DNA of 42,482 nucleotides from Lysobacterales bacterium 63-13 (GTDB taxonomy: Bacteria > Pseudomonadota > Gammaproteobacteria > Xanthomonadales > Rhodanobacteraceae), in assembly GCA_001899855.1 (NCBI GenBank), contig MKWR01000033.1, positions 1 to 42,482 of the forward strand, in the 5' to 3' direction. How positions within the stretch are numbered: the first letter of the stretch is position 1; every line of letters starts with the position of its first letter. A program made the translations under genes and the position numbers. This document shows, piece after piece, positions 13,214 through 34,768 of this stretch. The notes under the pieces are model-generated. The model searched no databases. It worked only from the letters and a program-made list of their open reading frames with translations, and had not been told where the DNA came from.

Positions 13214-13475
13214 TCCTTCGAAGTGAAAAGGTAATTTTGTCAGTTGCATTTGTCTCGTGTTTTTGGGGCTCCTGATCGGGATCCCTTAGCAAAGTGACAT
13301 CGTCTCGGGAACCAAATGTGTCATGCGTGTAGCTACACGAAGTGAAATTGTCAGGCGAGGAACGGTTCAGAATACTCGCGAATCAATTTTGTCAGCCAGG
13401 GTGCTGGTCGGTTAAATAGCCTGTCCGAAAAATCGGGGGTGATCCAGCGGCCAAATTGGCGCGGTGGAGCGCTAT
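13214..13475. repeat. Cluster of degenerate TGTCAG-containing repeats, candidate transposon end
   Basis: This AT-richer non-coding stretch holds four related motifs in one orientation: AAGTGA followed by AATTTTGTCAG (13221-13243), AAAGTGACATCGTC (13291-13304), CGAAGTGAAATTGTCAGG (13338-13355) and CGAATCAATTTTGTCAG (13379-13395). A perfect 14-bp palindrome CGTGTAGCTACACG (13326-13339) lies among them. Multiple degenerate binding sites of about 20 bp near a TGT terminus are how Tn7 and Tn5053 relatives mark their ends for TnsB/TniA, so this is a candidate end of the island. I could not identify a matching inverted terminus or target duplication on the other side. Confidence 0.4.
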
Positions 13476-14492
13476 TTAAACCATGTATTTGAGCACCCTT
13501 GCTCCGATGCCAATATGAAGTGCATAGCTTGGGTCCTCTTGCGCACCCCTTGACTGGCGATGTACTGCAATCGCAATAGTGCTATCTATGCTGTCTGGAG
13601 CAAGGGGATTGGTCTGAAGTGGCTTCAGATAGCGCACCCCGGATGTATCACGTGTCGGCGCTCCCTTGAGGGTGGCCAAGAGAATCGACGCAACTGCAGT
13701 CGTAAAGTCACACATAAGTGGGTTGGGCACTTCAATAGGCTGATAGAGCGCTTTGCGATCGAGCACCGGAAGACCCAACGAGACGCTACGCAAGAGGCGC
13801 GCGAAGGCATACACCCGCTGAATCAGGCTGTTGGCTGAAAAAGGAGCCACAATTCCAAGCCGGTCAAAAGACGTACCGTACCGAATTGCATGCTCCTCAC
13901 TAGGCAAATATTGCTCGACAATCCAACACCAAAGCTGTTCAGCATTTTCTTTAAGCGGCGGAATATCCTCAATACATTCAAGCAGTGCGAGCGCAACATA
14001 CCAGCCTTGTTCGAGCGAATCGGCGAACGGGGCGCTATTGACTAGCCGCCTAAGGGTAACTACCTCTAGTACGAAGAGGCTCAAATGATCGCAAGCGGCT
14101 TGTGACCTGAAGACTCCACGATCAAAGATGAGATCCTTCTTCTTTGCTTGTTCTACAATGATGTGCGGGAAACTCAGTTTACCCAATGCTTGGGCAAACG
14201 GTTCGCGGAGCGCCTGGAGTGGAACTTGGGGATTCAGAACGTGTATCCACTCCTCAAAGATTCGAATTGCTCGAGGACTTACTTGCCGGATGCCCGAGAG
14301 TACGCGTCGGGATTGAGGCACGGTCTGCCGGTCCATGGATTGCTTGATTTCACCAGGGTGCGGTCGGTCGTAGAAGAGCACTGCAAGATCTGTCAGGGAC
14401 AAATCTTTCTGCCGCGCAACATCAAGGCTAAGAACCTGGTGTGCGGTTCTAGCTAGTTCGCGCAATGGTAGCGGCAGCTTGCGTCGGCTCAT
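13476..14492 (-). CDS. Unknown 338-residue protein at the edge of the Tn7-like island
   Basis: A full-length reading frame of 338 residues that I do not recognise. It appears mostly helical and soluble, with no signal peptide or membrane segment and no nucleotide-binding loop. Segments such as LSLTDLAVLFYDRPHPGEIKQ suggest a helix-turn-helix-like N-terminus, but that is a guess. Base composition is lower in GC than the flanking metal genes and similar to the transposition genes. It lies between the repeat cluster at 13.2 kb and the transposition module, divergent from the TnsA-like gene, which is where Tn7-like elements often carry passenger or accessory genes. There is no strong ribosome-binding site before the ATG. 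Confidence 0.6.
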   Translation of the reverse strand: MSRRKLPLPLRELARTAHQVLSLDVARQKDLSLTDLAVLFYDRPHPGEIKQSMDRQTVPQSRRVLSGIRQVSPRAIRIFEEWIHVLNPQVPLQALREPFAQALGKLSFPHIIVEQAKKKDLIFDRGVFRSQAACDHLSLFVLEVVTLRRLVNSAPFADSLEQGWYVALALLECIEDIPPLKENAEQLWCWIVEQYLPSEEHAIRYGTSFDRLGIVAPFSANSLIQRVYAFARLLRSVSLGLPVLDRKALYQPIEVPNPLMCDFTTAVASILLATLKGAPTRDTSGVRYLKPLQTNPLAPDSIDSTIAIAVHRQSRGAQEDPSYALHIGIGARVLKYMV

Positions 14493-14841
14493 CGTTATCT
14501 GAATGAGCGAAATAAACTACTTGAAGTCTACTACGTATTTGCCCTATTCGTGAAAGTCGGAAATCCGGCGAATAGGCTCCTTGACAGGAGGAAAGCCGGA
14601 TTGTTGCCGCACTAGCAAGCTAGCTGTGCGGCTCACGTGACGGAGGCAAAAGCGACGTAGCCCAGAAACGACGAAGGCCACCCGATGCTGCGAGCGGCCT
14701 ATCAGTATGTTAAATAAAAGTGTTTATAGGTTAACGCATTAGTACACTTGATGGCCGCTGTCAATAGCAAAGGTGGTCCATTGATTTTCCGTTTCAACGG
14801 CTGCGTTCACCCTTGCCTCCGAGTTCCCGGAGGACAACATC
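14493..14841. promoter_or_regulatory. Structured divergent intergenic region before the TnsA-like gene
   Basis: The 349-base gap between the divergent 338-residue gene and the TnsA-like gene is full of dyads. They are CCTATTCG/CGAATAGG (14543-14550 and 14569-14576) enclosing CGGA/TCCG; CTCCT/AGGAG (14577-14590); GCCGCAC/GTGCGGC with inner TAGC/GCTA (14606-14632); and AGGCC/GGCCT (14675-14700). Closer to the gene, AAGTGT (14718-14723) and ACACTT (14744-14749) form an inverted repeat that could be an operator or TnsB site. A GGAGG ribosome-binding site at 14829-14833 serves the gene. The region must contain at least one promoter; the hairpin series could also be a small RNA. Confidence 0.5.
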
Positions 14842-15540
14842 ATGGCTAAAGCAACTACCAAGAAGTCACCGATGGCCAAGCTTCGCCGCAATTTGTTTGT
14901 TGCGTGCAGGCAGCGAGAACAGAATGCCCACAACATTTGGTTGGTCTATAGCGCTCGAACCAAACGCGAGTGGGTCTTGCGCAGCGACCTTCAGTACCTA
15001 CACTTTCTAGATATCGAGTTCGCGCCGGACGTGCGGCAGTTTGACCTGGCTCCCATCCCCCAGAAGACGACGCTCCTCGGTACCACTGAAACCATTGAGT
15101 TTGACGCGATTGTCGAATTCCGGGACGGGCATACCGAATGCCGCGAAGTCTCGGGCCGCAATGCGGAAGATGAGAACGAAGACAGCGTCCGCATCGGCCG
15201 CCTGCACGCCGCAGCTGAAACGCTCCATGCGAGCTACGTTCGCATTACTGCGGAGACGCTCGAGGCGAACCGACAGCGCATCCAAAACTCGCTGCGCATG
15301 TTGCGCTTCTTGAGCGCTGCTCGATGCTCATCCCTGACGGAGGCGCGCAACGCGGTGCTCACGTGTCTTTCGACGCAACGATACGGCTTGGCATTGCACG
15401 AACTTTCTGCGCGGATTAGCGAAGTGCCGGAAGCGCTTGTTTGCGCGGCTGCCTTTCAACTCCTTCAGCACGGACGCGTGGCAATGGACGTCAATGAATC
15501 GCCGCTGACCGGCATGACAAGCGTGAGTCGTGTGTCGTGA
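14842..15540 (+). CDS. TnsA-like protein, nuclease site apparently degenerate
   Basis: A 232-residue protein in the tnsA position. In Tn7, TnsA is the restriction-like nuclease that cuts the 5' ends of the transposon, allowing cut-and-paste movement. The fold is suggested by SDLQYLHFLDIEFAPDVRQF (residues 48-67), matching the SxLExxFLxxLEFDPxV region of TnsA N-terminal domains, then EFDAIVEFRDGHTECREVSG (86-105), matching the DFxV...EVK core. By this eye alignment the first catalytic Glu is Gln51 and the ExK lysine is Ser104, while Asp88 is kept. A GGAGG ribosome-binding site precedes the ATG. Its stop overlaps the next start. Family assignment rests partly on gene order. Confidence 0.65.
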   Translation: MAKATTKKSPMAKLRRNLFVACRQREQNAHNIWLVYSARTKREWVLRSDLQYLHFLDIEFAPDVRQFDLAPIPQKTTLLGTTETIEFDAIVEFRDGHTECREVSGRNAEDENEDSVRIGRLHAAAETLHASYVRITAETLEANRQRIQNSLRMLRFLSAARCSSLTEARNAVLTCLSTQRYGLALHELSARISEVPEALVCAAAFQLLQHGRVAMDVNESPLTGMTSVSRVS

Positions 15541-17492
15541 CAATGAACCCTCCACTTACCCGTAAAAGCGCACCAAGTGGACTCTTGGACACGTCGATCT
15601 GGCCGACAATTTCAACCGAAGGGCTGGCTGACAAATTGAGCAACACTATCGGTCAGTGGCACAACGTGATATCGGCCTACACTCGCGGCACTCCTGTCGC
15701 TTCGCTGCTCGAGGAGTACGGCTACTCGCATCGCGAGCTCCTGCGCAAGTTCAACAAGTGCATCCAGGTTGCCGATGACGGCAGACTAGCCGGTTGGCGG
15801 GGCATCTTACCAAACGCAATGCGTAAACCCTATGTGCGCCAAACTGAAGTCACTGGAAGCGGTAATGGCGCAGGCGCCTTGCACCAACTCTTCAAGCGAT
15901 TTGACGGTCTGGAGAAGTACCTCCAAGCACTCGTCACGAAGACGCCGATTCCCGGACACATACATGAGCCGCGCATTTCGAACAAAGCGCTACACGCGGC
16001 TTTCCTCGAGAAATGCAGTGAGCTTGGCGTCGAAGCCACTCAGTGGCCATTCAATGCTCGCTGGAAAGGTCGGCGCACAATCGATTCGTTTGTTGCAAAT
16101 ACAATTGCCACGCACGGCCCCCGCGCAGTCGCGGCGCGATATGGCGAGCTTGTTGCGTCGAAGATGTGCACAGGCACTGGAAAAGATCGCATTTTGCTGG
16201 CCATGGCGCCGCTGGACGTTGCGGAGATGGATGCGCACCGAATTGACCTTATTGGTGTAATCGGCTTGCCTACACCAGAAGGTGTCGCGTGGATTCCGAT
16301 TGAACGATTGATGATTCTACTCATTTGCGACGGAAGGGAAGGTACTGTTCTTGGATACTACGTGGTTGTGCGTCGCGAGTGCAGTAGTGACGACATCTTG
16401 GCAGCGGCAATGCCGCTGGTGAAGCCATGGAAGCAGCGGGAACTCGTGAAGGGAATGGAGTACGCCGCTGGTAGCGGCCTACCGCTGGGCGCTATTGATG
16501 GATTCTGTCCGTATGGTTTTTGTGCCCTTCTCGTCGACAACGCGTTAATCAACTACTCGTGGGCCGTCACTGATCGCCTGGTGAGGCGCATCGGCTGCGC
16601 CGTCAACTGGGGCCCAGTCAGGAAGTGGATGCGCCGCCCGCTAGTCGAGCGCATTTTTGGAGCACTTGAGCAAGCGGGGTTTCAACGTGTTGTCTCAAGC
16701 ACCGGTTCCCATCCAAAGGATTCTCGTCGCTCTGATCCCGTTGCTGCGGCTGTAAAGCATCGTGTGCACTTGAACCTTGTGCTTGATCTCATTGACTTAG
16801 TGATCGCGGGGTACAACGCGAAATCTTCCGAGGGTCGCTTCGGCATGTCGCCACTCGACACCATGAGGGATCTCATCGATCCACGAAACGGGCGAACACT
16901 ATTTCCGGTGTTACCACCCGTGACTCCACTCGCCCCGGAACTCGACACCCATGTGTTCTACGCGCACATCCGGGGTTCGTCGGCAACGGGGAGGCGACCT
17001 CGAATTAAGTTTCAACGCGCGAACTACACGAACCCGACTATCGCGCAAAATCCGAAGCTATCGGGTGAGGAGGTTCTCCTTCACGTGCGGCCGGACGACA
17101 TCCGTACCATCGATGTATTTGCAAAGTCCAGTGGCGCCTCGCTCGGCACGGCAACGGCCCAGGGCAAATGGCGCCACCATGCGCATAGCCTTGAGATGCG
17201 CCGTCAAATCAACCGATATATCGATGACGGTCGACTGGTTCTCGACGGTTCCACCGACCCTGTTACAGCGATGCATCAGGTTCTGCACAAGGAGGCAACC
17301 CAACGTAAGAAGAAAGGGTCACGCCAAACAGTTTCCAAGGCCGCGACGCAGTTAGCACGGGAGGCGCAAGTCACGGGTGTTGCCGCTGGATCGCTCGCCA
17401 AAAAGAATCCACATGCACCACCGGATCACAGCGTCGTATCACGGCGAGCGCCGCCCTTGGTGCATCGTGTAGGAGGAAACCGTCGTGTTTGA
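15537..17492 (+). CDS. TnsB/TniA-type DDE transposase
   Basis: A 651-residue DDE transposase that binds the transposon ends and performs 3' strand cleavage and joining. The retroviral-integrase-like core reads AEMDAHRIDLIGV (Asp232), LLVDNALINY (Asp334) and PLVERIFGALEQAGF (Glu371), so the catalytic triad is complete. A helix-turn-helix N-terminus and a C-terminal Mu-type beta barrel region fit the family. I give the GTG at 15537, which overlaps the TnsA-like stop in a GTGA; an ATG at 15543 is equally possible. The lack of its own strong ribosome-binding site suggests coupling. Length is close to Tn7 TnsB (702) and Tn5053 TniA (about 560). Confidence 0.9.
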   Translation: MTMNPPLTRKSAPSGLLDTSIWPTISTEGLADKLSNTIGQWHNVISAYTRGTPVASLLEEYGYSHRELLRKFNKCIQVADDGRLAGWRGILPNAMRKPYVRQTEVTGSGNGAGALHQLFKRFDGLEKYLQALVTKTPIPGHIHEPRISNKALHAAFLEKCSELGVEATQWPFNARWKGRRTIDSFVANTIATHGPRAVAARYGELVASKMCTGTGKDRILLAMAPLDVAEMDAHRIDLIGVIGLPTPEGVAWIPIERLMILLICDGREGTVLGYYVVVRRECSSDDILAAAMPLVKPWKQRELVKGMEYAAGSGLPLGAIDGFCPYGFCALLVDNALINYSWAVTDRLVRRIGCAVNWGPVRKWMRRPLVERIFGALEQAGFQRVVSSTGSHPKDSRRSDPVAAAVKHRVHLNLVLDLIDLVIAGYNAKSSEGRFGMSPLDTMRDLIDPRNGRTLFPVLPPVTPLAPELDTHVFYAHIRGSSATGRRPRIKFQRANYTNPTIAQNPKLSGEEVLLHVRPDDIRTIDVFAKSSGASLGTATAQGKWRHHAHSLEMRRQINRYIDDGRLVLDGSTDPVTAMHQVLHKEATQRKKKGSRQTVSKAATQLAREAQVTGVAAGSLAKKNPHAPPDHSVVSRRAPPLVHRVGGNRRV

Positions 17493-18513
17493 ACCTCGCC
17501 AAGAAATTTCCTTTTCTGAAGCCTTGCTTGCCCCCGACAGTCTTGATGCGTTTATCGCGTGGCGCGAAGAGATATGGGATTTGCACCCAGTCGTCGTTTG
17601 GGATCGGTCGTTCCTTTTGCCTACGCCGGTGATTACGGAGAGCGGGAAACTCGTGAGCAGCGATGTATACAACAAACGGACGGGTACTGGGTTCGTGAGC
17701 CCACCGCGAATGGGCAAAACCAGCTGCCTCTTGAGCATGGTTGAGAGCATCCGAGAGGCCTTCCCGGCGACTGCCGTCCTGTTCATGGAAGCGTATTTGA
17801 GCAGCAACCCAACCGAGAATGCGTTCTATGCGGATATGTTAAAGGGCGCTAAATTTCCTTTGCGACACGGACGGACGGGTGCGGAACGACGTGAGCAAGC
17901 GAAGGACTTGTACCTCGCGCTCGGGAAGGATGGAGACAACCGTCGAGTAGTTCTCTTCGTCGATGAGGCCCAGAACTGGGGTGAGTGCGAATGGACATGG
18001 CTCAAGGCTGTCCAAACGCATCTGTGGAGAAATGGCATCGCTCTCGTGGTCATTTCATTTGGGCAGCCGCAACTCATCGAACGCCGCAACTCGCTCATCC
18101 AAACGGGCCGTAGAGATTTAACGGATCGATTCCTGCGTCGCCTACGGGCATTTCGCGCCATCCGAACTCTCAGTGACGCCGAAGCGATCTTCAAACTGTT
18201 TGATGAAACGCGCTTCCCGGAATCTACCGGGGTTTCGTACAGCGAGTTCTTTTTCCCTCAGGCGTTTCGCGCAGGGTGGCGGTTCAAACACGAAAGCAAA
18301 CTCGCACTCCAGGCCTTCATCGGTAACGGTCCGAAAGAGAAGATCAATATTGGCATGGAGTGGATGGCGCTCGCGATCAAACATTTCTTAACAGAATTCA
18401 CAGACTGCGACAGCGCCGGCTGGAAAGGAACAGTCGAGCAATGGCAGGAAGCAGTCGCTTCGAGCGACTGGTTTGATAATGACGATATCGACGATGAAAA
18501 AGACCTTCTTTGA
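17485..18513 (+). CDS. TnsC/TniB-type AAA+ transposition regulator
   Basis: A 342-residue AAA+ ATPase that links target selection by TniQ to the transposase and likely forms filaments on DNA. The Walker A loop reads SPPRMGKTS (residues 72-80, with Ser at the usual Gly/Ala position) and Walker B reads VVLFVDEAQNWG with Asp160 and Glu161. The GTG start at 17485 has a near-perfect AGGAGG 8 bases upstream and overlaps the transposase stop by 8 bases. Such a strong site before an overlapping gene suggests that this ATPase is made in excess, as expected for a filament former. The tail is acidic (DNDDIDDEKD). Confidence 0.88.
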   Translation: MFEPRQEISFSEALLAPDSLDAFIAWREEIWDLHPVVVWDRSFLLPTPVITESGKLVSSDVYNKRTGTGFVSPPRMGKTSCLLSMVESIREAFPATAVLFMEAYLSSNPTENAFYADMLKGAKFPLRHGRTGAERREQAKDLYLALGKDGDNRRVVLFVDEAQNWGECEWTWLKAVQTHLWRNGIALVVISFGQPQLIERRNSLIQTGRRDLTDRFLRRLRAFRAIRTLSDAEAIFKLFDETRFPESTGVSYSEFFFPQAFRAGWRFKHESKLALQAFIGNGPKEKINIGMEWMALAIKHFLTEFTDCDSAGWKGTVEQWQEAVASSDWFDNDDIDDEKDLL

Positions 18514-19996
18514 GCGACATGAAACGTGGAATCGCCTCGTAACGGCACGCGGCCACATCGGATGGTCCCGCCACTACGTGAGTCCATTCATGTCCGCGTG
18601 GTGCATTCACCAGCAGTACTGCCATGTTAATCAAGTGAGCGGCGCGGAGCTTCTAGAGCCCTTCGACATGCAGGATGTCTCGTCGCGAATGAAAAATCCT
18701 CGGCTCACGAAAAGTTTCCTCGCAACAGATACTTGGATGCCGCAGATGAGCGCCCTCGGGCAGGCCGAAGGATCGGCATTCGGCGAGTTGTTGAAGGCCA
18801 TTCACGGAGCCTCGTTGAAATGCAGGGTCGGCGCCTGGCTTCGGCAGGTGGCGGACGATAGCCAGATACGGTTGTGCTCTATGTGCCGTGAAAAGGGGTA
18901 TCAGTCGATTTTCGATCAGGTGCTCGGCTTAGATCGTTGTCCAATACATGGGGAACGCTACCTGACAGAATGCTTGCACTGTGGCAGTGCATTGCCATCG
19001 TATAGTTTCGAACGGACGCGCGATGGCCTTGCATGCGGACAGTGCAAAGCGTATCTGATGCCTTTTTCCGACCGTGCTCTTGTGAACATATCGGCTTCTG
19101 ATCGTGCGGATCAGGAAAGAGCATGGGCACCCTTTGCGGCCTGGTGCCGGCGCGTCTCGCAGCTTACCTCTAACTCGAGCATTCCAGGCTTTCCGTATCG
19201 GACGGAAGAAACGGAGTCCGTCCCGCCACCCGTGCGGTTTCTATGGGTGCTGGATGCGATTGAGCCGCTGCCAAAGGAGATTCATAAATGTGTTACACCG
19301 CGAATCACATCATTGCGGCACGTTCGCATTTCAATGCGAGCTCATGGTGCAGAAGACAGCGCTTCCCACCACCTCCCGCTAGATGATGAGGCCGCACGCG
19401 AACGCAGAGCTGTCTTCAAGTCTATCGCTCGCCATCTCCGTCGCCGGTACCTAGTTGGGCACGGCGAATGTTTGCTGCGAATGGAGCGAGACTTTTTTGT
19501 TATGAACTTCGGCGATGGCAAATTCGCGTCAAGACTCGTGGACGGATGTCATGTGGCTCAAGCGTATCTCTACTGGTGCTACTCGCTCTGTCGCAACCAC
19601 GCACCGAGGGGCCACAGGCCAATTCTGGAGATGTTCTTGCCATCGGCGATGGGTAGTGACATTCGAGTGTGGGCTCATCAAATATTGAGCGCATTCTGCG
19701 AACGATTCGCGGCTATGCGCATCGCTTACCGGATGGAGGCTGACGCGAGCAGCAAATGCCTGTTCGCCGGACAGGAGGGTGTGCGGGATGTCATTGAACG
19801 CCTAGAACTTTCTGACGCGCAACTGCGACTAGGCAGCATAGTCATCGAGACTCCTTCGGCAGACGTGGTCGTTGTTGGACGTGGACCACTGCCCGATCTG
19901 ATAGCGCCCAGTTGTTCGACTTGCTGCACACCGAAGGCACTTCGCTCGGCAGTGAGACCTCTATCGCCCCGTACCTCAGTGGACACAGGCTCATGA
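18494..19996 (+). CDS. TniQ/TnsD-family target-selection protein
   Basis: A roughly 500-residue TniQ-family protein, which chooses the insertion site and recruits the TnsC-like ATPase. The N-terminus shows the TniQ-like stretch GWSRHYVSPFMSAWC, and the zinc-finger block lies at about residues 128-184: CSMC, CPIH, CLHC and CGQC, giving eight ligand positions. The size is between minimal TniQ (about 400) and Tn7 TnsD (508), so it could be a TnsD-type protein with a DNA-binding C-terminus recognising a fixed site. The ATG at 18494 overlaps the ATPase gene by 20 bases; an in-frame ATG at 18473 is possible. It is the last gene of the tnsABC-tniQ operon. Confidence 0.85.
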   Translation: MKKTFFERHETWNRLVTARGHIGWSRHYVSPFMSAWCIHQQYCHVNQVSGAELLEPFDMQDVSSRMKNPRLTKSFLATDTWMPQMSALGQAEGSAFGELLKAIHGASLKCRVGAWLRQVADDSQIRLCSMCREKGYQSIFDQVLGLDRCPIHGERYLTECLHCGSALPSYSFERTRDGLACGQCKAYLMPFSDRALVNISASDRADQERAWAPFAAWCRRVSQLTSNSSIPGFPYRTEETESVPPPVRFLWVLDAIEPLPKEIHKCVTPRITSLRHVRISMRAHGAEDSASHHLPLDDEAARERRAVFKSIARHLRRRYLVGHGECLLRMERDFFVMNFGDGKFASRLVDGCHVAQAYLYWCYSLCRNHAPRGHRPILEMFLPSAMGSDIRVWAHQILSAFCERFAAMRIAYRMEADASSKCLFAGQEGVRDVIERLELSDAQLRLGSIVIETPSADVVVVGRGPLPDLIAPSCSTCCTPKALRSAVRPLSPRTSVDTGS

Positions 19997-20100
19997 TGAG
20001 CATCGAGTCCCGACGATTGGCTGAAGCACGACGTAGCCATAGCTTGGGGAAATTCCCGGAATAATCATTTCGACGGCTGGGCCCGATCAACCAGTGAGGA

Positions 20101-20391
20101 CTAGCTGAGTTCCTTTTTACTTCTGGTTTGAGATTTTGGGATGGCCTTCTTGCTGCGCTTGGACAAGTAGGTCCGCATCATGTCCACGGGGTCCGCGCCG
20201 AAGGCGTCGCAGATTTCCACGAACTCGACGACGTCGATTCTGCGCTCACCGCGTTCACATTTTGAAACAAAGGTTTGACTATTGCCCAGCCTGTCACCCA
20301 ATTGCTCCTGAGTGATGCCGGCGCGCAGCCGAGTGCGGCGCAGCAGCGACAATAAGCACTGATAGTTCTCGTTGTGTGTTGAGCTTGCCAT
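20101..20391 (-). CDS. XRE-family helix-turn-helix regulator
   Basis: A 96-residue DNA-binding protein with a Cro/CI-type helix-turn-helix at about residues 14-70 (LRAGITQEQLGDRLGNSQT is the core, with FVSKCERGER following), then a basic tail. The ATG at 20391 is chosen since the domain begins shortly after. It is divergent from the 289-residue gene, and the 88 bases between them contain an inverted repeat likely to be its operator, so it probably represses itself and its neighbour. Such regulators often control excision or transposition in mobile elements. Confidence 0.85.
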   Translation of the reverse strand: MASSTHNENYQCLLSLLRRTRLRAGITQEQLGDRLGNSQTFVSKCERGERRIDVVEFVEICDAFGADPVDMMRTYLSKRSKKAIPKSQTRSKKELS

Positions 20392-20422
20392 CAATCTTGC
20401 CGGTGACCAGCTCACACGCAAA

Positions 20423-20455
20423 AGTCGATTTTCGAATAGTCCAAAATCGACTATT
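20423..20455. promoter_or_regulatory. Inverted-repeat operator between divergent genes
   Basis: A perfect inverted repeat with 10-bp arms, AGTCGATTTT (20423-20432) and AAAATCGACT (20443-20452), has a 10-base spacer. A second overlapping dyad pairs AATAGTC (20435-20441) with GACTATT (20449-20455). It sits midway between the starts at 20391 (minus) and 20480 (plus). This is the geometry of a shared operator for the XRE regulator. Confidence 0.75.
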
Positions 20456-20479
20456 TTTGAAGTCTTGGGCAAGGCCAAT

Positions 20480-21349
20480 ATGGCCGCTTCTGGGCGGCCC
20501 AACTACGAGGTGATTCCCGTGCTCTCCAGCCCGGAAGAATTGGGACTGTTTGGTGCCATGGCCCTTCAGGCCGTCATTCTGGCTGGGTCAGACCCTGGAT
20601 ACCGCTCTCTGCGCACGCATCCAGGATTCGGATCTCGCCTTGCCCCCCATCGTGCACTGCGCCATCGCGTTCTGATGTCGCTCCTCGATGCCGGCGTTCT
20701 GGCCCCGGTTGGCTCGAAAAGACGACTGGATGACGCTCTGAGTGAGGCTTCGTGGGAGGATTCCAGTCTTGAGGACTCGAACTGGACTGTTGTTTGGAAT
20801 GACGTTACACGGGGAAGCCTGGGGGAACGACTGGCGGCCTATTTAGATGCATTCGAGAGTACCCCTGGAACCAGAGCGGTGTTGTTGGATACTTGGCAGG
20901 CTTTAGGAGTAGGAGAGTGCATCTCATTTGGCGAGTACGCGCTCTCTGTGCACAACCTAAATCCCGCACTCGCTCGCACGGCTGCTCCCTCGCTTAGACC
21001 CTTGCTGGGTCAGCATTCAATTGGACAGGGTTGTGCCCTGATGTGGACGGGAGCAAAAAGTGTTGCTTCCTGGTTTCTTCGTAATGGGGGTGGGGCGAGT
21101 GGTTTGGCTGACCGAGAACTCGTCAGGTCGATTCATGGCTACGCTGATCGTGCACGCCAAAACGGCCAATCTGTCACGCAATTCTCCCGTCATTTGGCAG
21201 TTCCGTTTAGCACTCTCGCGGGAAGCTTTCTCTTGGCCAGTCGATTAGGAGAAAGCTATTGGACCACTCCCATTTCAGAGACCGCTCTAGATCGGGCGCG
21301 TCCGGTAGACGTTGCGGGTGACTCGGAACTGACTGAAGCCGGGGCATGA
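20480..21349 (+). CDS. Unknown 289-residue protein within the Tn7-like island
   Basis: I do not recognise this protein. It has 289 residues from the ATG at 20480, no signal peptide, no obvious membrane segment and no nucleotide-binding loop. It begins with NYEVIPVLSSPEELGLFGAM and looks helical throughout. A longer reading starting at 20372 would run through the operator and is rejected. It is divergently paired with the XRE regulator and lies between TniQ and the tyrosine recombinase, so it is probably an element gene under that regulator. It could be an accessory transposition factor or cargo. Base composition is like that of the transposition genes. Confidence 0.65.
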   Translation: MAASGRPNYEVIPVLSSPEELGLFGAMALQAVILAGSDPGYRSLRTHPGFGSRLAPHRALRHRVLMSLLDAGVLAPVGSKRRLDDALSEASWEDSSLEDSNWTVVWNDVTRGSLGERLAAYLDAFESTPGTRAVLLDTWQALGVGECISFGEYALSVHNLNPALARTAAPSLRPLLGQHSIGQGCALMWTGAKSVASWFLRNGGGASGLADRELVRSIHGYADRARQNGQSVTQFSRHLAVPFSTLAGSFLLASRLGESYWTTPISETALDRARPVDVAGDSELTEAGA

Positions 21350-21482
21350 AAGGAAGGTCGCTTGAGGTGACGGAAGCTGACGCTATTAAGCATGAGCGCA
21401 TGTTGCCTTCTCACTGCAACGAAGGCGGACTATAGAAAATGTCTCCAAACCGCATCTTCTGACAGGCATGCACCTGCTCGCA

Positions 21483-22724
21483 TCAACTTTGGCCACTGCC
21501 TGGCTTTGAACCATCAAGCAGAGTCTTGAGCGCCTCAGAACGATTTTTGCCAGAGCGCCTGACCAATACCCTCTCGGCGTAACGGGCCGGCATCCTAGGG
21601 GATTTCCAACGACCTGTTTGCATAATAGTGTGTAATTCCATGTCAACGCGTGTCATGTCCTGTGCACCTCCGACCCTGGCTGAGTGACCAGACAAATGCT
21701 TCGTTGTGCCAGACCGTCTTGCGATTCGCTCGAAAGTTCTCGAAACCTCGCGAATCGATAGGGCTTTCGTCTTGCTTCCCACTTGGCTTGCATGGCGTGG
21801 CAGGGCATGGAATACAAAGGGGTTTCCGGGAACGGCATGCTGCTGCCACGCGCGCAGTCGATTGGCCGTTTCCGGCGTTAGGTAGAGATCAACGCCATCG
21901 CCAGTCACGTCCGATTTGGAGCGTAGCAATTTGACGTTGGCGCCGCCCTCGGCGTCAGCTTCGAATGTGATGGTCTCCCAACGCATCGCGACTAACTCGG
22001 AAGCGCGGGCCATGGCATCGTAGGCCACCGCAGCGAAGGCCAGATCACGCAGAGCCCGGGGATCGTCGTCGGGCGTGGATGCTGCGAGTGCCTCTAAGTC
22101 TTCCACGTTTAGAGGGGGCGCCTGATACTGCGACTTCACGAGCTCTTCGCGGCTCACCCGTTTCCAGTAACTGCGAAATACCAGAGATTCTATGGGGCAG
22201 GGACACCCCCAAACCTCACAGGCGATTTTGAGAGTGAACAACAGGTGCTCCAAGCTGGCGCGTTTATAGCCTGCCGCGATCAGTGCATCGAGAAAATCCT
22301 TTAGATCAGCCAAATTGACCGGCATAACAACCCGGTCCTCTACGATGCAATACGCCAGCCAATGACTCCAATCAGTGCGCATCGATTTGCGGCTGTTGTG
22401 AGCGTAGGCGATGGTGCCGACCTTCCGGACTTCAATTAGATTATTGTTGGCATTTTTGACATGCTCAGCCGTCAGCTCTGTCCGCACGGAGGGCAAGTTG
22501 ATTGGGAAATCAGTCAGATCGAGCGCACCATGAAACTTGTCTGACACGAGAGGCGGAGCGTCGAAAACCATGTGCAGCGGTGAGGTCTCCGGGAGATCCT
22601 TGCGCTGCATTTCAGTAAGCAGAAACGGAGATTGCGCACGCTCGCGGTGCGGCACCTTGGACTTGCGAATCTTCCTTGGCCGGCCGCGGGGCAAAAGGTC
22701 TTCTGGGCGCTTCTTTTTGGTCAT
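21483..22724 (-). CDS. Tyrosine recombinase
   Basis: A 413-residue tyrosine recombinase with a full active-site set by eye: Arg240 (MARASELVAMRW), Lys270 (LLRSKSDV), His347 and Arg350 (GHSARVGG), Trp373 (GRWKS) and nucleophile Tyr382 (ARYAERV). The N-terminal 25 residues are basic and include an AT-hook-like RGRPRK at 13-18, followed by a core-binding domain at about 90-190. It is convergent with the 289-residue gene. The 180 bases upstream hold palindromes, including a candidate core site at 22902-22922. It may be the integrase of a separate element or the resolvase of the Tn7-like element. Confidence 0.9.
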   Translation of the reverse strand: MTKKKRPEDLLPRGRPRKIRKSKVPHRERAQSPFLLTEMQRKDLPETSPLHMVFDAPPLVSDKFHGALDLTDFPINLPSVRTELTAEHVKNANNNLIEVRKVGTIAYAHNSRKSMRTDWSHWLAYCIVEDRVVMPVNLADLKDFLDALIAAGYKRASLEHLLFTLKIACEVWGCPCPIESLVFRSYWKRVSREELVKSQYQAPPLNVEDLEALAASTPDDDPRALRDLAFAAVAYDAMARASELVAMRWETITFEADAEGGANVKLLRSKSDVTGDGVDLYLTPETANRLRAWQQHAVPGNPFVFHALPRHASQVGSKTKALSIREVSRTFERIARRSGTTKHLSGHSARVGGAQDMTRVDMELHTIMQTGRWKSPRMPARYAERVLVRRSGKNRSEALKTLLDGSKPGSGQS

Positions 22725-22901
22725 CGGAAGGATCCCTTCAATACGACCATATGCAAAAGGATGCCATACAAGGCGCTAAGTTTAGCTCTCAATCACACGA
22801 TTTGAAAAGGAAACTATCGCGACGCTCCATCTATCACACGGCGCTTGGTCGCCTCCATCCGCGGATGCGATTGTGTGTGATGTAAGCCGAGTGAATGACA
22901 G

Positions 22902-22922
22902 GGTTTCGAATATATCGAAACC
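22902..22922. repeat. 21-bp palindrome, candidate tyrosine-recombinase core site
   Basis: Arms GGTTTCGA (22902-22909) and TCGAAACC (22915-22922) are perfectly complementary around an ATATA spacer of 5 bases. Two recombinase-binding arms around a short AT-rich crossover region is the general form of tyrosine-recombinase core sites. It lies about 180 bases upstream of the recombinase gene. Use as a recombination or resolution site is inferred; it could also be a regulatory operator. Confidence 0.5.
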
Positions 22923-23828
22923 TCAATGAATCTGTGCCTGAACGCACTGAGATGCGCGCTGGAGTGGGTCTCCTCGCGCCTTCTCTTGGCACGATGACTC
23001 ACGAGGAGGGAATCTGCAGCTATCGATGGTCTGTAGGGCAGATCATGCGTCGCCGCGATGTTTGGCACTTTGATCGTCTTTGAAGTGAGACTGAAAAGAT
23101 GGGCCGATTGAGCCGGACCCGACTTTCGATTAGATAACTTTATCGTGGGTGAATTTTGCCAGCTTGCTGACCAACCATTGCCAGCAGAATTGACCAGGAT
23201 AGGCAACTGACTTGCCCGGCATCGGCAACTGGCATACCAGCTGGGCGACGGTTAATTGTCGTGCCGTTGTTGTTATTGAAAATGCCCGCAATCTGAATGC
23301 GATTCACCGGCGCGTATGAGCAGTCTCGCAACAACCTCGCAGAACCTCCTACAGAGTCACCGGCTGAAGGCTGTGCGTGCTACTTCGAATTTGAGCCAAG
23401 GTGCTTCTGCAGATTCACTTGTCTTGTCGGTTAGCGCCTATGGAATGCCAGCTATGAACGTGGCGCGCGGGAAATGCCTGTCGCTTCGTTCCGCGCGCTA
23501 TACGTGGTTCACGGCATTGAGCCGGTCTGGATGCCGGGTGGCCCTGGCGAGCAGCCGGTGAAAGCGGCTATGCACACCATCTATCTGGTGCTAGCCGATC
23601 GCGTCGGCATTGGGCTCGATACCGACCCAGCCTCAATGGGTAGGACGCTCAGCCAAGCGGAGCGCCTGCGCGTGCTCAAAGCCGCCTTTGCACTGAGTGC
23701 CGAGAGGGGGGGCGGCTGGACATCGTGGGGATAAAGCAATAACTGGAGATCGTGCTGCGACGGTAGCAAGATCCTTGCAGGAATCGGCCGACTAAACCGG
23801 AACGGTAAGGTTCTGATGCGTGTTCTTG

Positions 23829-23845
23829 TACGGCAATATGCCGTA
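23829..23845. promoter_or_regulatory. Palindromic operator of the toxin-antitoxin operon
   Basis: The inverted repeat TACGGCA (23829-23835) and TGCCGTA (23839-23845) with a 3-base ATA spacer lies 24 bases before the antitoxin ATG. DUF1778 antitoxins carry a ribbon-helix-helix domain and repress their own operons through such sites. Confidence 0.75.
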
Positions 23846-23869
23846 TGCTTGCGTCAGGAGGACAAGACC

Positions 23870-24151
23870 ATGCCCACATCCATTTCTACCGCCCGTCTCG
23901 AAGCCCGGATCAGTACCGATCTGCATTCGATGCTCAAACGTGCCGCCGAGCTTCAAGGCCGGACCATGACGGATTTCGTGATCGATGCCGTGCAGGTTGC
24001 TGCGCAACGTGCCATCGAGCGAGCCGAAGTCGTCCGCTTGTCGCTGACTGATCAGCAGTGCTTTGCACAGGCGTTGTTGTCACCACCCCGGCCGTCCCCG
24101 GCTCTGAAACGTGCTTTTGCTCGTCGCAAAAAACTTTTGCGCGTTGAATGA
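23870..24151 (+). CDS. DUF1778 (TacA-like) antitoxin
   Basis: A 93-residue ribbon-helix-helix antitoxin that neutralises the GNAT toxin encoded next and represses the operon. The DNA-binding N-terminus reads ARLEARISTDLHSMLKRAAE, then ELQGRTMTDFVIDAVQ, and the C-terminal toxin-binding part includes LSLTDQQCFAQALL and a basic end. The ATG at 23870 has an AGGAGG 8 bases upstream and a palindromic operator in front. The stop overlaps the toxin start as ATGA. Confidence 0.9.
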   Translation: MPTSISTARLEARISTDLHSMLKRAAELQGRTMTDFVIDAVQVAAQRAIERAEVVRLSLTDQQCFAQALLSPPRPSPALKRAFARRKKLLRVE

Positions 24152-24669
24152 ACGACCCGCCGTTCCTGCTTGTGCCGCTCGATCAAGCGCATGACCGAAC
24201 CCGGTTCAATAGCGGCTCGGAAGCGCTCGATCGCTACTTTCGAGAGCAGGTCACCCAGGATATGCGTCGTCGCGTCGCTGCCTGTTTTGTGGCGCTGGAT
24301 GGAAAGCAGCAGATAGCGGGCTACTACACCTTGGCATCAGCCAGCATTCTGCTGGCCGATCTTCCGGCCAGCAGCGGCAAGAAGCTGCCGCGCTATCCGA
24401 CCGTGCCTGCGGTTCGCATGGGTCGCTTGGCTGTCGATCAGGCATTCAAGGATCGGGGTTTGGGCGGTGCCTTGCTGGCCGATGCGCTCAACCGCGCCAC
24501 CCACTCCGAGATCGCCGCCCACGCCTTGATGGTGTATGCCAAGGACGCTTCAGCAGCTGCCTTCTACGTGCATCACGGTTTCATTGTTCTGCCCAACTCC
24601 CCATTGACACTCTTCATGCCGTTGGCGACGGTGCTCGCGCTTCGGAAAGCCGAAAAAACACCACGATAG
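24148..24669 (+). CDS. GNAT-family toxin (TacT-like tRNA acetyltransferase)
   Basis: A 173-residue GNAT acetyltransferase toxin. Related toxins acetylate the amino acid on charged tRNA and block translation. The acetyl-CoA site reads RLAVDQAFKDRGLGGALLAD (residues 93-112), and the C-terminal AFYVHHGF places Tyr140 at the catalytic position known from TacT. It is translationally coupled to the antitoxin by an ATGA overlap. The pair probably stabilises the surrounding island. Confidence 0.9.
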   Translation: MNDPPFLLVPLDQAHDRTRFNSGSEALDRYFREQVTQDMRRRVAACFVALDGKQQIAGYYTLASASILLADLPASSGKKLPRYPTVPAVRMGRLAVDQAFKDRGLGGALLADALNRATHSEIAAHALMVYAKDASAAAFYVHHGFIVLPNSPLTLFMPLATVLALRKAEKTPR

Positions 24670-25024
24670 GTGCCGACTAGCGAATCTAGCCGGGACCGCT
24701 TGCGATGGTGGTCAGGTTTGATGCCAGGAATGAGCGAGGCATGGGCAACGTGGTCGCCGGCTGTAGTCAGTTCCGCCGGCGAAGATAGTCAGTTGCTGTG
24801 GCGAAGGTGAGCAGGTCGACGGCGTTTTGCAATCACCTTGGCAAGGATGACCAGCGCGGTCTTGGTCGCTTTATTGCGGATGCTTGTGTTGTAGGACCTG
24901 TGTCTGCGAGGCCCTCTTCGTTTGATACACATTGAAGAAATGCGCACTTTCGTGTGCGCATAGGTCCTGTCCGGACGTTGAAACGAAATTTTGTAACACC
25001 GCAAGTCCCCTGTATCGTTACCCG
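24670..25024. promoter_or_regulatory. Upstream region of the czc-type operon with repeats and a dyad
   Basis: Near 24758-24802 two copies of a unit of about 21 bp close to TAGTCAGTTSCnnnGGCGAA follow each other and a third partial copy comes after, a pattern seen at ends of some insertion sequences. Closer to the operon is a perfect dyad, ATGCGCAC (24940-24947) and GTGCGCAT (24954-24961), with a 6-base spacer, followed by the small palindrome GTCCGGAC. The dyad is a candidate operator for the efflux operon starting at 25025. A reverse-strand reading of about 40 residues ending at 24789 looks vaguely like a transposase tail but is too short to call. Confidence 0.45.
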
Positions 25025-25402
25025 ATGCGACTCCGCTCCTCACCCGCCATACTGACAACATTGCGCCAATCCTCGCGATTGCCGGTGCTGCTGTTGCTGG
25101 TGTTTGCGCTGAAGCTGATGGGGTTTGTCGCCTGCACGGCGCATGACATGTTGGATCTTGCCCAAGGCGCTGGAGCGTCCATCGACGGAGTCACTCTTGT
25201 CGCAGAGTCCAGTGAGCCCACAGGTGAGAACCCGTTTGATCTGAACGGTGCCTGCGAGCATTGCGGCTGTCACCAGGCGGCTGCCGTGTTACCCGTGCAA
25301 CCGATCATGCCGTCCATCGTTGCTTGCTCTGGACCGGAACGGGTCACCAGTACGAGCAGCAATATTCCTCTCGCCAGAGAGCTGCGCCCACCGATCGTCT
25401 GA
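25025..25402 (+). CDS. CzcI-like small exported Cys/His protein
   Basis: A 125-residue protein with an N-terminal signal or membrane segment (about residues 18-37) and a Cys cluster GACEHCGCHQAA near residue 80. It is first in the second RND operon, 64 bases before the czcC-type gene. CzcI proteins occupy the same position in other czc operons and modulate their expression; sequence similarity is limited to size, export signal and the Cys/His cluster, so the name is by analogy. The ATG at 25025 is chosen because the signal sequence follows; a longer reading would run back through the promoter dyad. Confidence 0.65.
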   Translation: MRLRSSPAILTTLRQSSRLPVLLLLVFALKLMGFVACTAHDMLDLAQGAGASIDGVTLVAESSEPTGENPFDLNGACEHCGCHQAAAVLPVQPIMPSIVACSGPERVTSTSSNIPLARELRPPIV

Positions 25403-25466
25403 ACAAGTCACTGCTTCCTTTTGGCGGTATTCGCCGAAAGCTGACTTGTATTCAGAGGATTGTTTC

Positions 25467-26747
25467 ATGCCTTCATTTCGTTCAACGCGACAGTGCACGG
25501 TCGCGTGTCTGGCGGTCGCCATTTGTTTCTCAAATGTTGCACAGGGCGCTTCGTCATCGGCGGAGCGCGACGGCTCCTTGGCCCCGCTCGCACTCCGTAG
25601 CGCCCTTCAAGCGGCCTGGCAGCAGCATCCCCGCTTTCGCGTCACGGAGGCCGAGTTGTCTGCGGCCAATGCGCGTCGAGATGCCGCCGGTCAACCGCTC
25701 TACAACCCCGAGCTTGAGTTCAATTCCAACAAGGAAGGTCCGGATCGCACCAGCACGGCTGGCGTCAGCCTAACTCTGGACCTGAGCGGCAAGCGCAGGG
25801 CTCGCAGCGAAGCAGCAGAATCCCGGGTCGATCAGGCCGTCGCCGAGGCCCGGGTGCGGCGTCGCGAGTTCGCTCGTCAATGGTTCAATGGCTGGGCGGA
25901 CCTTCTCACCGCCACTCAGCGCGTCGGGATTGGCGAGCGCCGAATGGCGCTGGTCACGCGCTTTGCAACCTTGGCTGACAAGCAATATTCCGCCGATGAC
26001 ATTTCAGGTCTGGAACGCGACCTCGCCGCACTGGCGCGTGATGAGGCGCAAGTTCAGCAGTCCCAACTGGAGTCCGAGCGGTCCGACGCCGAGGCGCGCT
26101 TCCGCGCGGTGGGCGGAGCCGGAGATACGGTGACAGCCACCGTACTTCCGACCGATACCCTTCCCGAACCAACGGCAACGGCCGCTGATATTGAGCAACT
26201 ACCGGATTGGCAGGTGGCGCATGCTGCCGCATCGGCGGCTGAGCGCGAAGTCGTCGTCGCCCGACGCAACCGGATCGCCGATCCCACGCTCGGCGTCAAC
26301 GGTGGACGCATCGACTATGGCAGTTTCAGCGACAACGTCATCGGCGTCACGCTGCGCGTACCGCTCTTTGTGCGCAACTCCTACGGCGCCGAGGTGATCG
26401 CGGCGCAGGCCGAGGCGGATGCGGCCGAGGCCGAATCCGAGCGCGTAACGCTGGAACTCAGTACCGAAAACCGTCGCGTCATCGAAAGCTACGCCATCTC
26501 GCGGACCGCCTGGGATCGCTGGCAATCCAGCCGCGGCACCGATGTGGACCGACGTGCCGACCTGCTCGAACGCCTGTGGCGCGAGGGGGAGTTATCGACC
26601 GCCGACTATCTTTTGCAGCTTAAGCAGACCCTCGACACGGCCCTGGCCGGTGCCGAACTCGAAGCACGCGTCTGGCGCAATTACACCGACTATCTCGCCG
26701 CCATCGGTCAGCTCGAACGCTGGTCCGGACTGGAGGCCACGCCATGA
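25467..26747 (+). CDS. czcC: TolC-family outer-membrane channel, CzcC type
   Basis: The outer-membrane channel of the second RND efflux system, 426 residues. It has a signal peptide ending near AQGASSS and the long helices of outer-membrane efflux proteins, with YNPELEFNSNKEGPDR and LTLDLSGKRRARSEAAESR in the first half and VTLRVPLFVRNSYGAEVIAA in the second. The ATG at 25467 follows AGAGGA with 7 bases spacing; an earlier in-frame start would overlap the CzcI-like gene. The stop overlaps the next start (ATGA). Confidence 0.88.
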   Translation: MPSFRSTRQCTVACLAVAICFSNVAQGASSSAERDGSLAPLALRSALQAAWQQHPRFRVTEAELSAANARRDAAGQPLYNPELEFNSNKEGPDRTSTAGVSLTLDLSGKRRARSEAAESRVDQAVAEARVRRREFARQWFNGWADLLTATQRVGIGERRMALVTRFATLADKQYSADDISGLERDLAALARDEAQVQQSQLESERSDAEARFRAVGGAGDTVTATVLPTDTLPEPTATAADIEQLPDWQVAHAAASAAEREVVVARRNRIADPTLGVNGGRIDYGSFSDNVIGVTLRVPLFVRNSYGAEVIAAQAEADAAEAESERVTLELSTENRRVIESYAISRTAWDRWQSSRGTDVDRRADLLERLWREGELSTADYLLQLKQTLDTALAGAELEARVWRNYTDYLAAIGQLERWSGLEATP

Positions 26748-27961
26748 GCACTATTCCCATGAAAGTTTGCACACTGTTCTGCCCGCTACTGTTGTCGACT
26801 CTAGTGCTTTCTCTGTCCGCCTGCTCAAAGTCAGCCGATGAATCGGGTCCGGCCGGCCCGGCCGAGCACGCGCAAGTCAAACTGGATAAGTCCGCAACAT
26901 CCGGACATCAAGGTGAGGAAGGCAAGCATGCGGAGGAAGAAGCCTCCGAATCCGGCATACGCATGGACGAGGCAGCATTGGCCGCCGCCGGTGTCCAATC
27001 GCAGACCCTCCGACCCAGTTTGCTGACCGAGGAGCTGCGCGCCCCTGGCGAAGTGATCGACAACGCCTATGGCACCACACTGATCACGCCTCGCGTCGAA
27101 GCGCTCGTTGTCCGTCGCCATGCGCGGATCGGTGATGAAGTTGAAGCCGGCGCCGCGCTTGTGACCTTGTCCAGTGTTGAAGTTGCCAATGCCCAGGCCG
27201 ATTTGCGCATTGCCGAAGAGGAGTGGCGTCGGGTGTCGGCCTTGGGCCGCGAGGCCGTCTCGGGTCGCCGTATCAAGGAGGCCCAGGTGGCTGTAGACCG
27301 AGCGCGGGCTGCGGCACGCGCCTATGGCCTGCCCGGGGCTGCTGCGGGACGCAGCAACGGTGAATTCACATTGACTGCACCGCACGCCGGACGCCTGACG
27401 GAAGATGATTTTGTCGTCGGTCAGCGCATCGAACCCGGCAAGCCGCTGTTTCGTCTCGTTGATGAATCGACCGTCTGGGTTGACGCCAAGCTGCCTTCGG
27501 ACGCGGTGTCTCGCGTGCAGGCGGGAGCGCCGGCAACCGTTATCGCCGGTGGCCAACGCATGCCCGGGACGGTCATGCACAGCGCGCACCGGACCTCCGA
27601 AGCCACACGCAATGCATCTGTTCGTGTGGAGGTGCCAAACCCGGACGATCGACTGCATGGAGGTGATTACGTCGATGTGTATTTCGAGGCCGGCAGATTG
27701 GCTTCCGCGCAATCGCAAACGTCAGACTCGCTGTCGGTTCCGAACGGTGCGTTGGTGCAGATTGAAGGGGAGACGGTCGTCTTTCGCCGTGATGAACACG
27801 GCGCATTTGCCCCTGTGCCGGTTCGCGTCGGCGATGTCATCGGTGACCACACGGTCATCCGCGAGGGATTGAAAACGGGCGACACCGTCGTCGTGACCGG
27901 CGCATTCACCTTGAAATCCCAGATTCTCAAAGCGCAAATGGGAGAAGGACATGGTCACTGA
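26744..27961 (+). CDS. czcB: RND adaptor lipoprotein, CzcB type
   Basis: The periplasmic membrane-fusion protein of the second RND pump, 405 residues. The N-terminus is a lipoprotein signal (LSLSACSKS, lipidated Cys27), followed by a His/Glu-rich stretch GHQGEEGKHAEEEASESG that may bind metal. Lipoyl and hairpin regions then lead to a membrane-proximal domain with LKTGDTVVVTGAFTLKSQIL. It ends GEGHGH. Translation is coupled to czcC by ATGA. A 30-base gap with a GGAGG site leads into the pump gene. Confidence 0.9.
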   Translation: MSTIPMKVCTLFCPLLLSTLVLSLSACSKSADESGPAGPAEHAQVKLDKSATSGHQGEEGKHAEEEASESGIRMDEAALAAAGVQSQTLRPSLLTEELRAPGEVIDNAYGTTLITPRVEALVVRRHARIGDEVEAGAALVTLSSVEVANAQADLRIAEEEWRRVSALGREAVSGRRIKEAQVAVDRARAAARAYGLPGAAAGRSNGEFTLTAPHAGRLTEDDFVVGQRIEPGKPLFRLVDESTVWVDAKLPSDAVSRVQAGAPATVIAGGQRMPGTVMHSAHRTSEATRNASVRVEVPNPDDRLHGGDYVDVYFEAGRLASAQSQTSDSLSVPNGALVQIEGETVVFRRDEHGAFAPVPVRVGDVIGDHTVIREGLKTGDTVVVTGAFTLKSQILKAQMGEGHGH

Positions 27962-27991
27962 TTCCTTCCCGTCACTGGGCGGAGGTCCGTC

Positions 27992-31120: not shown

Positions 31121-31446
31121 AGCAGATCAAGGCATTCGTGCATCGCAACCGGGCGTCGGATCTGGTCCGCGCCCTGGAGGATGCGGGCTTTCGGAAATTG
31201 AGCCTTTTCGACGTCAAAGGATTACTCCGCGCACTACGTGCGCGGGAACAGGAGTACTCGGTGGACTTCGGTGATCGTGTCATCAGCGAAATGCAGATGG
31301 AGCTGTTCTGCGAGGACGAGGAAGTCAGTCGCGCGGTGGAGATCTTCCTCCGTGTCGGTCGGACCGGACAGGCCGCTGCCGGCTGGGTCTATGTCGCCGC
31401 CGTGGAGCAGGCCTTTGCCATTGGTGCGACCGAACCGCCGAGCTGA
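31117..31446 (+). CDS. PII-like protein linked to the RND pump
   Basis: A 109-residue protein with a PII/GlnB-like layout: MKQIKAFVHRNRASDLVRAL resembles the start of GlnB, a short T-loop region spans about residues 35-60, and GRTGQAAAGWVYV (81-93) matches the B-loop TGxxGxGxIxV pattern. PII-like proteins lacking nitrogen-control features are known beside heavy-metal efflux genes. It overlaps the czcA stop by ATGA, so it is probably made in step with the pump and may sense a nucleotide or metal and adjust pump activity, which is inference. Confidence 0.8.
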   Translation: MKQIKAFVHRNRASDLVRALEDAGFRKLSLFDVKGLLRALRAREQEYSVDFGDRVISEMQMELFCEDEEVSRAVEIFLRVGRTGQAAAGWVYVAAVEQAFAIGATEPPS

Positions 31447-31534
31447 AGGATTCTGCGAACCGCTGCTCAACCGGCGACGCGGGGTACGCGGACGCCTCTG
31501 GACAAATCACACAACTCGTTCCGAGGAGACCCAC

Positions 31535-32440: not shown

Positions 32441-32664
32441 CTCGGCGCAGCATCGAGGACCCGAGATCGAATCAGACCGATAAATCTGTTTTGGAATCCG
32501 AACCCAGATACCCGGAAATCGAGATTGAGAAGTCCTCACTTGGTCCATTCAATCGTTGATTCAGAGCATGAGTTTCAGGCGTCGTGCCGTTGAAGGGGTT
32601 TCCGAGTGTTTCGACAACACGCAGAGCGCGTCGTGCCATGCCACTTCTATGCAGCACGGACTTG

Positions 32665-33078: not shown

Positions 33079-33081
33079 GGG

Positions 33082-33112: not shown

Positions 33113-33119
33113 TGCGCGC

Positions 33120-33476: not shown

Positions 33477-33486
33477 GAGTCGATCG

Positions 33487-34651: not shown

Positions 34652-34768
34652 GTGTCTGATGGTGCCTTCGGGCACCCCGTCTGCATTCGCTTCGCGTACG
34701 CGCGAGGTAAACCGCAGTCTTCGCCTGCGCGTGGTGCGCAGTCGAACCATCAACACTCCATGGTGATA

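Follow-up and report, generated by a model that had tools for sequence, protein, structure and literature searches.

What does a tyrosine recombinase do beside a Tn7-like transposition core whose TnsA homologue appears no longer able to cut DNA? The question is raised by contig MKWR01000033.1 of Lysobacterales bacterium 63-13, a stretch of 42,482 bases (the window) that is the entire source contig, G000:C33, of a genome of 3.75 Mb over 36 contigs. Coordinates of the open reading frames (ORFs) bear out the gene order proposed in an earlier note on this DNA: a TnsA-like gene, tnsB, tnsC, a tniQ-like gene, a helix-turn-helix (HTH) regulator, a gene of 289 residues and, on the opposite strand, a tyrosine recombinase. 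From gene order, folds, catalytic residues and the repeated association of recombinases with related cores (given below by our genome and locus numbers), we consider resolution of cointegrates by the adjacent Cre-type recombinase to be the best explanation of this locus. Our confidence is held somewhat short of even because neither the membership of the recombinase in the element nor its site is established.

A critical issue is the state of the TnsA-like protein (14842..15540, + strand). It has no Pfam match; a Klebsiella relative scores 46.8 bits with Tn7_TnsA-like_N. Foldseek comparison of its AlphaFold2 model (pLDDT 89) returned Tn7 TnsA chains as the three best PDB matches (1t0f at E 2e-8, TM 0.45) and a chain of the TnsABCD complex as the fourth, the four spanning E 2e-8 to 7e-7 at TM of about 0.45. 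At the columns of E63, D114, Q130 and K132 the protein reads Q, D, E and S, so that D114 is kept; the E63 column was located by aligning Tn7 TnsA with the profile, where this residue directly follows S-D-L, and the others were placed by motif, with D114, Q130 and K132 being what we take to be the numbering of the catalytic columns. The loss of catalytic residues suggested by the earlier note is thus borne out – E63 is replaced by Q and K132 by S, despite the Tn7 TnsA fold – and the protein is an apparent pseudo-nuclease. The window lacks the catalytically complete TnsA that marks a cut-and-paste Tn7-like element. Only two of 37 rows, a total that includes the window, have the whole set of four residues (Klebsiella and Noviherbaspirillum), a count that reads in a K shifted by the alignment in Azonexus and Noviherbaspirillum and whose columns are uncertain in the most distant rows. 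The loss is therefore a feature of the lineage and is not tied to recombinase-bearing elements.

The remainder of the core is of recognizable type. TnsB (15537..17492, +) has no Pfam match above cut-off, and its profile matches both PseTnsAB in the PDB (E 2e-9) and the transposase that occupies the place of TniA in R751 (39.4 bits); residues D232, D334 and E371, invariant in all 12 aligned proteins, are read as the DDE triad. TnsC (17485..18513, +) is an AAA+ ATPase by Pfam AAA_22 (32.2 bits) and by a profile match to ShTnsC in the PDB (E 0.0034). The fourth gene (18473..19996, +; 507 residues) encodes a protein that itself has no Pfam match and whose relatives reach PF06527 below cut-off only (best E 0.00067); its probable identity as TniQ/TnsD rests on its position after tnsC, on homology to the fourth gene of relatives and on a Cys-rich motif. 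With TniQ so assigned, the DDE TnsB, AAA+ TnsC and TniQ/TnsD that define a Tn7-like core are all present. Of 233 family genomes, 27 have a match to TnsB at E<=0.001, as have eight of 398 genomes of the order sample at E<=1e-40 (own genome included in each); Dyella, Rhodanobacter, Luteibacter and Lysobacter are among the named relatives of the core, and a distant search of plasmids with window positions 12600-20400 gave no match. The source genome has a second, distant Tn7-like core (G000:C7:1950-6911; L047), with no recombinase-family match >200 aa within the 20 kb examined.

The recombinase (21483..22724, – strand) lies 1.5 kb past TniQ with two genes between. Residues 75-383 align with Cre, the best PDB match (E 1.7e-20), including the motif S-G-H-S-A-R-V-G, and alignments with Cre and relatives (19 rows) confirm the intact R-K-H-R-W-Y set that had been claimed; possession of this set, along with similarity over most of Cre, makes the enzyme Cre-type. 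It is the sole match of its kind in the source genome at E<=0.001. In a tree of 18 rows, from which a 247 aa ORF of G225 and a 528 aa ORF of G047 were left out, it pairs with an enzyme from a Xanthomonas plasmid (48% identity, support 100/99).

How might such an enzyme serve such a core? TnsB would join the 3' ends of the element to target DNA, while its TnsA-like partner would no longer cut the 5' strands; without that cut, replicative transposition and donor-target cointegrates are to be expected. In the absence of 5' cleavage, strand transfer by TnsB yields a Shapiro intermediate that becomes a cointegrate after replication (PMC11406308). The Cre-type recombinase, recruited from plasmid-type recombinases, would then act at a single lox- or res-like site close to where it is encoded, for which the palindrome at 22902 is a candidate, and the cointegrate would be resolved into two replicons, each with one copy of the element. 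Cre itself resolves dimers of P1. Replicative transposition, the inclusion of the recombinase in the element, the use of this site and resolution itself are steps that we infer.

The plasmid affinity of the recombinase suggests an alternative: that it is unconnected with the core and lies next to it by chance, as a passenger or neighbour within a metal-resistance island. It would then be a dimer resolvase of the plasmid type, or a remnant. The Xanthomonas plasmid enzyme, nearest of the tree rows, has no tns genes within the stretch shown, and neither have three further Xanthomonas plasmids, which surround the enzyme with a common set of neighbours akin to that on the first plasmid; the enzyme type is therefore an independent, recruitable module. 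By tblastn (E<=1e-5) the recombinase matches 1309 plasmid records, as against 67 for the window TnsB. Close homologues in G148 and G091 are without a core within about 10 kb, that of G148 lying about 5.5 kb from what reads as a Tn3-type transposase, and G186, whose core is sister to that of G118, has no recombinase. Set against this is the placement of the enzyme where it does accompany cores. At E<=1e-30 the recombinase type occurs in 13 of the 233 family genomes, three of which carry it within 12 kb of a TnsB match where a rough chance estimate is about 0.04 (three others have it on the TnsB contig but 69 to 96 kb away, and seven have no TnsB match); moreover, the distances past TniQ in G118 and G124 are similar to that in the window. 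We regard a passenger as unlikely, if a serious contender. The coupling of recombinase and core asserted by the earlier note stands in part: recombinase-family proteins recur near related cores, but the plasmid relative and G186 speak against a tight bond. The same is true of the two observations that the note had listed as damaging to its case, since related modules without a recombinase do exist, though lacking clear ends, and the recombinase type does occur away from tns genes.

How general is the association? Among 38 annotated loci, 17 of which have flanks shorter than 12 kb on one or both sides, a broad profile finds recombinase-family proteins >200 aa within 12 kb of the core in 14. By alignment reading seven are catalytically intact (window, G118, G124, G166, G225, Xeuv and Azonexus, the last with its recombinase annotated in its record) and six degenerate (G152, G207, G202, G229 and the TniQ C-terminal domains of G082 and Rugamonas); one, the 528 aa ORF of G047 (PF00589, 40.5 bits), was graded unclear because its HxxR motif is altered. 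A previous count of ours with two narrower profiles gave 10 of 38 and overlooked Azonexus, G047 and both TniQ fusions. As the broad profile had been iterated, the fusions were rechecked using a profile blind to them. Not counted were a 79-residue fragment in G186 that had no tblastn support, short fragments in G100, G166 and G493, and a recombinase in G049 that lies 21 kb away beside a Tn3 transposase. TnpS-type enzymes (the label is ours) occur farther off in two more loci, at 24.5 kb in G426 and 53 kb in G022. For serine recombinases a motif scan of the relatives produced one candidate, in G048.

The best indirect support for a role in resolution comes, by analogy, from the TnpS-type enzymes. 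The congener G022 carries a different Tn7-like element, of 61,082 bp (G022:C1:235829-296909; loci L048, L049, L092 and L093), the only relative whose ends could be defined. It is bounded by TGTCTGACAACC and TGTCTGACGACC, with inverted ends alike at 11/14 and four inward repeats per end, and is flanked by a flush direct repeat of 11 bases, longer than the five bases of the usual Tn7 target duplication. About 1.3 kb inside its far end is a TnpS-type recombinase with a divergent KfrA-like gene, and this pairing, accompanied by the palindrome TACCCGCGATAATCATCACTTATCGCGAGTA or a variant, is found in G022, G124, G426 and Xeuv. When two Tn3 transposases were used as tblastn queries, the G022 region gave one match, which lies outside the element; the stretches of G124, G426 and Xeuv gave no match, those of Xeuv and G426 stopping inside the KfrA-like gene or shortly after it. 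Tn3 elements use TnpS/TnpT pairs for cointegrate resolution, with the site lying between the divergent genes (PMC7157771), and the pairs in G022, G124, G426 and Xeuv may do likewise. KfrA-like genes also lie <=4 kb from the core on the TniQ side in G048, G049, G054, G118, G124 and G166, with or without a recombinase.

The limits of the window element itself are a further issue. Direct and inverted repeat searches, k-mer pairing, motif scans and a flush-duplication search gave a clear outcome for G022 only, and in the window contig the last found no convincing inverted-end pair with a target duplication. No pair stands out, so positions 13214 and 23165, given previously as the bounds of the element, are not supported as its ends; the element may extend past the contig end at 42,482. 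An array of five AATTTTGTCAG-like repeats at 13231..13398 (+) contains a tight TTGTCAG pair that is unique in the genome, with a repeat count that is ordinary by k-mer test. As an end of this core it was dropped, its polarity being that of the right ends of G022 and G152/G207; by analogy with these it may belong to an element on its left.

A number of results weigh against cointegrate resolution as the explanation. With the ends not located, the recombinase can be placed within the element only tentatively; its nearest relative sits in a plasmid setting, and in the window contig no KfrA-like gene was matched. The putative site is a weak candidate. The palindrome, GGTTTCGA-N5-TCGAAACC at 22902..22922, upstream of the recombinase, does have perfect 8-base arms and a single place in its own genome at up to 1 mismatch, and to this extent the palindromic site of the earlier note is real, but it is not exceptional: the window holds 13 such 8-base inverted repeats (spacer 4-8, overlapping ones included) versus a mean of 4.2 in 20 shuffles, and within 850 bases around the gene start the palindrome scores 16, the same as the shuffle median of 16. 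The association is also uneven. Six of the 14 recombinases are degenerate, so resolution cannot be their role; in 21 of the 35 rows with an incomplete TnsA site, the available flanks hold no recombinase-family protein up to 12 kb from the core; and G186, as noted, lacks one. If 14 rows of the TnsB tree are labelled as recombinase-bearing, presence and absence must have changed at least 11 times, and at least 12 times if 16 rows are; given presence in 14 of 38 loci, recombinases have thus been recruited repeatedly and not fixed. Finally, PF00589 has 262 matches in 28 genomes, about nine per genome, so that about two of the 29 loci in these genomes would be expected to have one nearby by chance. 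By this rough estimate the six loci in which locus annotation places a PF00589-scoring, non-degenerate recombinase within 12 kb (window, G047, G118, G124, G166 and G225) represent a modest excess, and mobile genes cluster in islands.

To the right of the recombinase lies a metal-resistance block (23127..39837) that recurs in the G022 element at 99.7% identity, where it forms cargo on the tnsA side rather than on the recombinase side as in the window. On its left the block adjoins the recombinase side. In G022 it begins at the identical base, with unrelated sequence next to it, and in both genomes an 11-base string lies close to the junction. These features suggest a further possibility, namely that the recombinase is the integrase of the block and joins it to different cores. 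Yet G022 carries the block without a recombinase homologue at E<=1e-30, and the palindrome has no second genomic copy at up to 1 mismatch; we thus consider a block integrase very improbable. At the other edge (39837; L049) the homology between G022 and the window stops inside a copper ATPase gene, at an IS21-type-looking end.

The degenerate recombinases suggest a quite different possible function. G152 and G207 each encode a Cre-like protein of 313 residues, its catalytic residues gone, whose open frame overlaps the end of tniQ (L091:8176-9117 and G207:C1:3974446-3975387). The dead gene is followed by an end-like array of five TTTCTTGGCA-type repeats, just beyond which the two genomes cease to share their long homologous block. 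A dead recombinase-family gene directly follows tniQ in G229, and in G202 (G202:C22:730617-731885; L039, L056) a dead Cre-like recombinase with a changed HxxR lies immediately before tnsA, in opposite orientation. The TniQ proteins of G082 (984 residues, as an open frame; L037:3775-6729) and Rugamonas (951; L061:12949-15804) are candidate TniQ-recombinase fusions, in which the C-terminal domain resembles a degenerate recombinase: the match to the TniQ profile spans 87-421 (E 2e-90) and 42-376 (E 1e-89), respectively, and a non-iterated recombinase profile matches 594-810 (E 5e-10) and 544-768 (E 3e-12). Pfam returns a weak integrase SAM-like match in one of the two only (E 0.028), and blastp of the C-termini against 19 recombinases gave nothing significant.

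These arrangements recall TnsF, an inactivated tyrosine recombinase proposed as a target selector (Faure et al. 2023, PMC10293859). G152 and G207 resemble the reported tniQ-tnsF order, their dead proteins being candidate TnsF analogues, and G082 and Rugamonas resemble the one TniQ-TnsF fusion mentioned in that paper, which also reports the active Tsy homologue. Could the window recombinase likewise be a DNA-binding target selector for TniQ, still active or perhaps performing both jobs? The gene is intact, on the opposite strand and two genes from tniQ, and we judge a selector to be improbable. A broader reading, which we think fairly unlikely, would make room for both functions: the lineage would have kept TnsA as a structural pseudo-nuclease, moved replicatively and repeatedly taken up Cre-type and TnpS-type recombinases of plasmid and Tn3 origin; these would have begun as active resolvases of cointegrates and, in some branches, have later become dead partners that, encoded beside TniQ or fused to it, bind the target. 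The window would then represent an early, active stage of a route like that leading to TnsF.

The earlier note knew of no Tn7-like family with this pairing, a claim of novelty that the literature does not sustain: tyrosine resolvases are described with Tn7-like branches (PMC8649781), and TnsF has been reported (PMC10293859). Benler et al. 2021 (PMC8649781) describe tyrosine or serine resolvases (tnsR) in Tn7-like branches that have lost tnsA, for which they predict replicative transposition and propose cointegrates, and state that mutations in the TnsA active site permit replicative transposition. The window shares with the tnsR branches a Tn7-like core, a tyrosine recombinase and the proposal of cointegrate formation and resolution; unlike them it keeps a TnsA homologue, apparently dead. 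Replicative tnsR branches have their resolvase inside the element and a TnsB of clade 2 or 3 (PMC8649781); the window recombinase, 1.5 kb from the core, is a putative member of its element, and the profile of the window TnsB scores PseTnsAB and the R751 transposase similarly, so that its clade is not assignable from these.

Tn402/Tn5053 (TniA, TniB, TniQ and TniR) likewise combine a TnsB-type transposase and their own recombinase with no working 5' nuclease. R751, however, has no annotated or matched TnsA and lists a 'recombinase family protein', which we take to be of the serine type, whereas the window has a TnsA-like gene and a tyrosine recombinase; family-library scans named none of the 29 ORFs examined a serine recombinase such as TniR. 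Tn6022 with its TnsF and the Tsy transposon share with the window a tyrosine recombinase protein linked to a TniQ transposon, but TnsF of Tn6022 is inactive, is in an operon with tniQ and targets comM, and the Tsy transposon is without Tn7 genes (PMC10293859); the window enzyme is intact and on the opposite strand, and no comM was found among the 29 ORFs scanned. With P1 Cre and related plasmid recombinases the enzyme shares its catalytic set and similarity over most of Cre; it differs in lying beside a transposon core, in an N-terminal extension and in having a candidate palindrome in place of a demonstrated lox site. The Tn4651-type TnpS/TnpT modules of Tn3 transposons (PMC7157771) are resembled by G022, G124, G426 and Xeuv, where a recombinase gene and a KfrA-like gene, the latter a putative counterpart of TnpT, diverge from a conserved palindrome, whereas the window enzyme is Cre-type and has no KfrA-like helper.

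Since a replicative Tn7-like element with a resolvase has already been proposed, novelty resides in a TnsA kept as an apparent pseudo-nuclease together with a Cre-type enzyme. In the excerpts of the literature searched we met neither a lineage-wide, retained degenerate TnsA nor a Cre-type partner with dead and TniQ-fused relatives. The locus offers a testable case of a TnsA homologue that outlasted the loss of its catalytic site, and with it come related cores whose shared neighbourhood holds recombinase domains in active, dead or TniQ-fused form. An origin of TnsF-like target selectors from resolvases would thereby become directly testable, and Cre-type enzymes may be natural partners for cointegrate-forming Tn7-like elements.

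Several features of the surrounding DNA deserve mention. GC content is 52-58% at 13-25 kb, as compared with 62-67% leftward and 56-64% rightward; the left part of the window has exonuclease I and copper/metal efflux genes, and the right part more metal-resistance genes. Upstream of tnsA is an ORF of 338 aa (13476-14492) with no family matches and no counterpart in the other 37 loci. Between core and recombinase are the HTH regulator (20101..20502, –; Pfam HTH_31) and its companion, the 289-residue gene (20480..21349, +; alignment of 9), whose ATG at 20480 lies inside a 325 aa ORF (20372-21349) and whose product has no PDB match at E<=0.001. This HTH and divergent 289-residue-type pair (20101-21349) recurs in L044, L082 and G225:C21:122984-124184, and also in L080 and L088, where the stretches hold no core; it is possibly a regulatory or toxin-antitoxin unit. 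To the right, a DUF1778-GNAT toxin-antitoxin-like pair (23816-24669) is accompanied by repeats resembling GGCAACTGAC near 23201 and by copies in inverted orientation at 24764-24806; together these may be what is left of a small mobile unit. Possible IS21-like remnants are seen around 23.15-24.83 kb.

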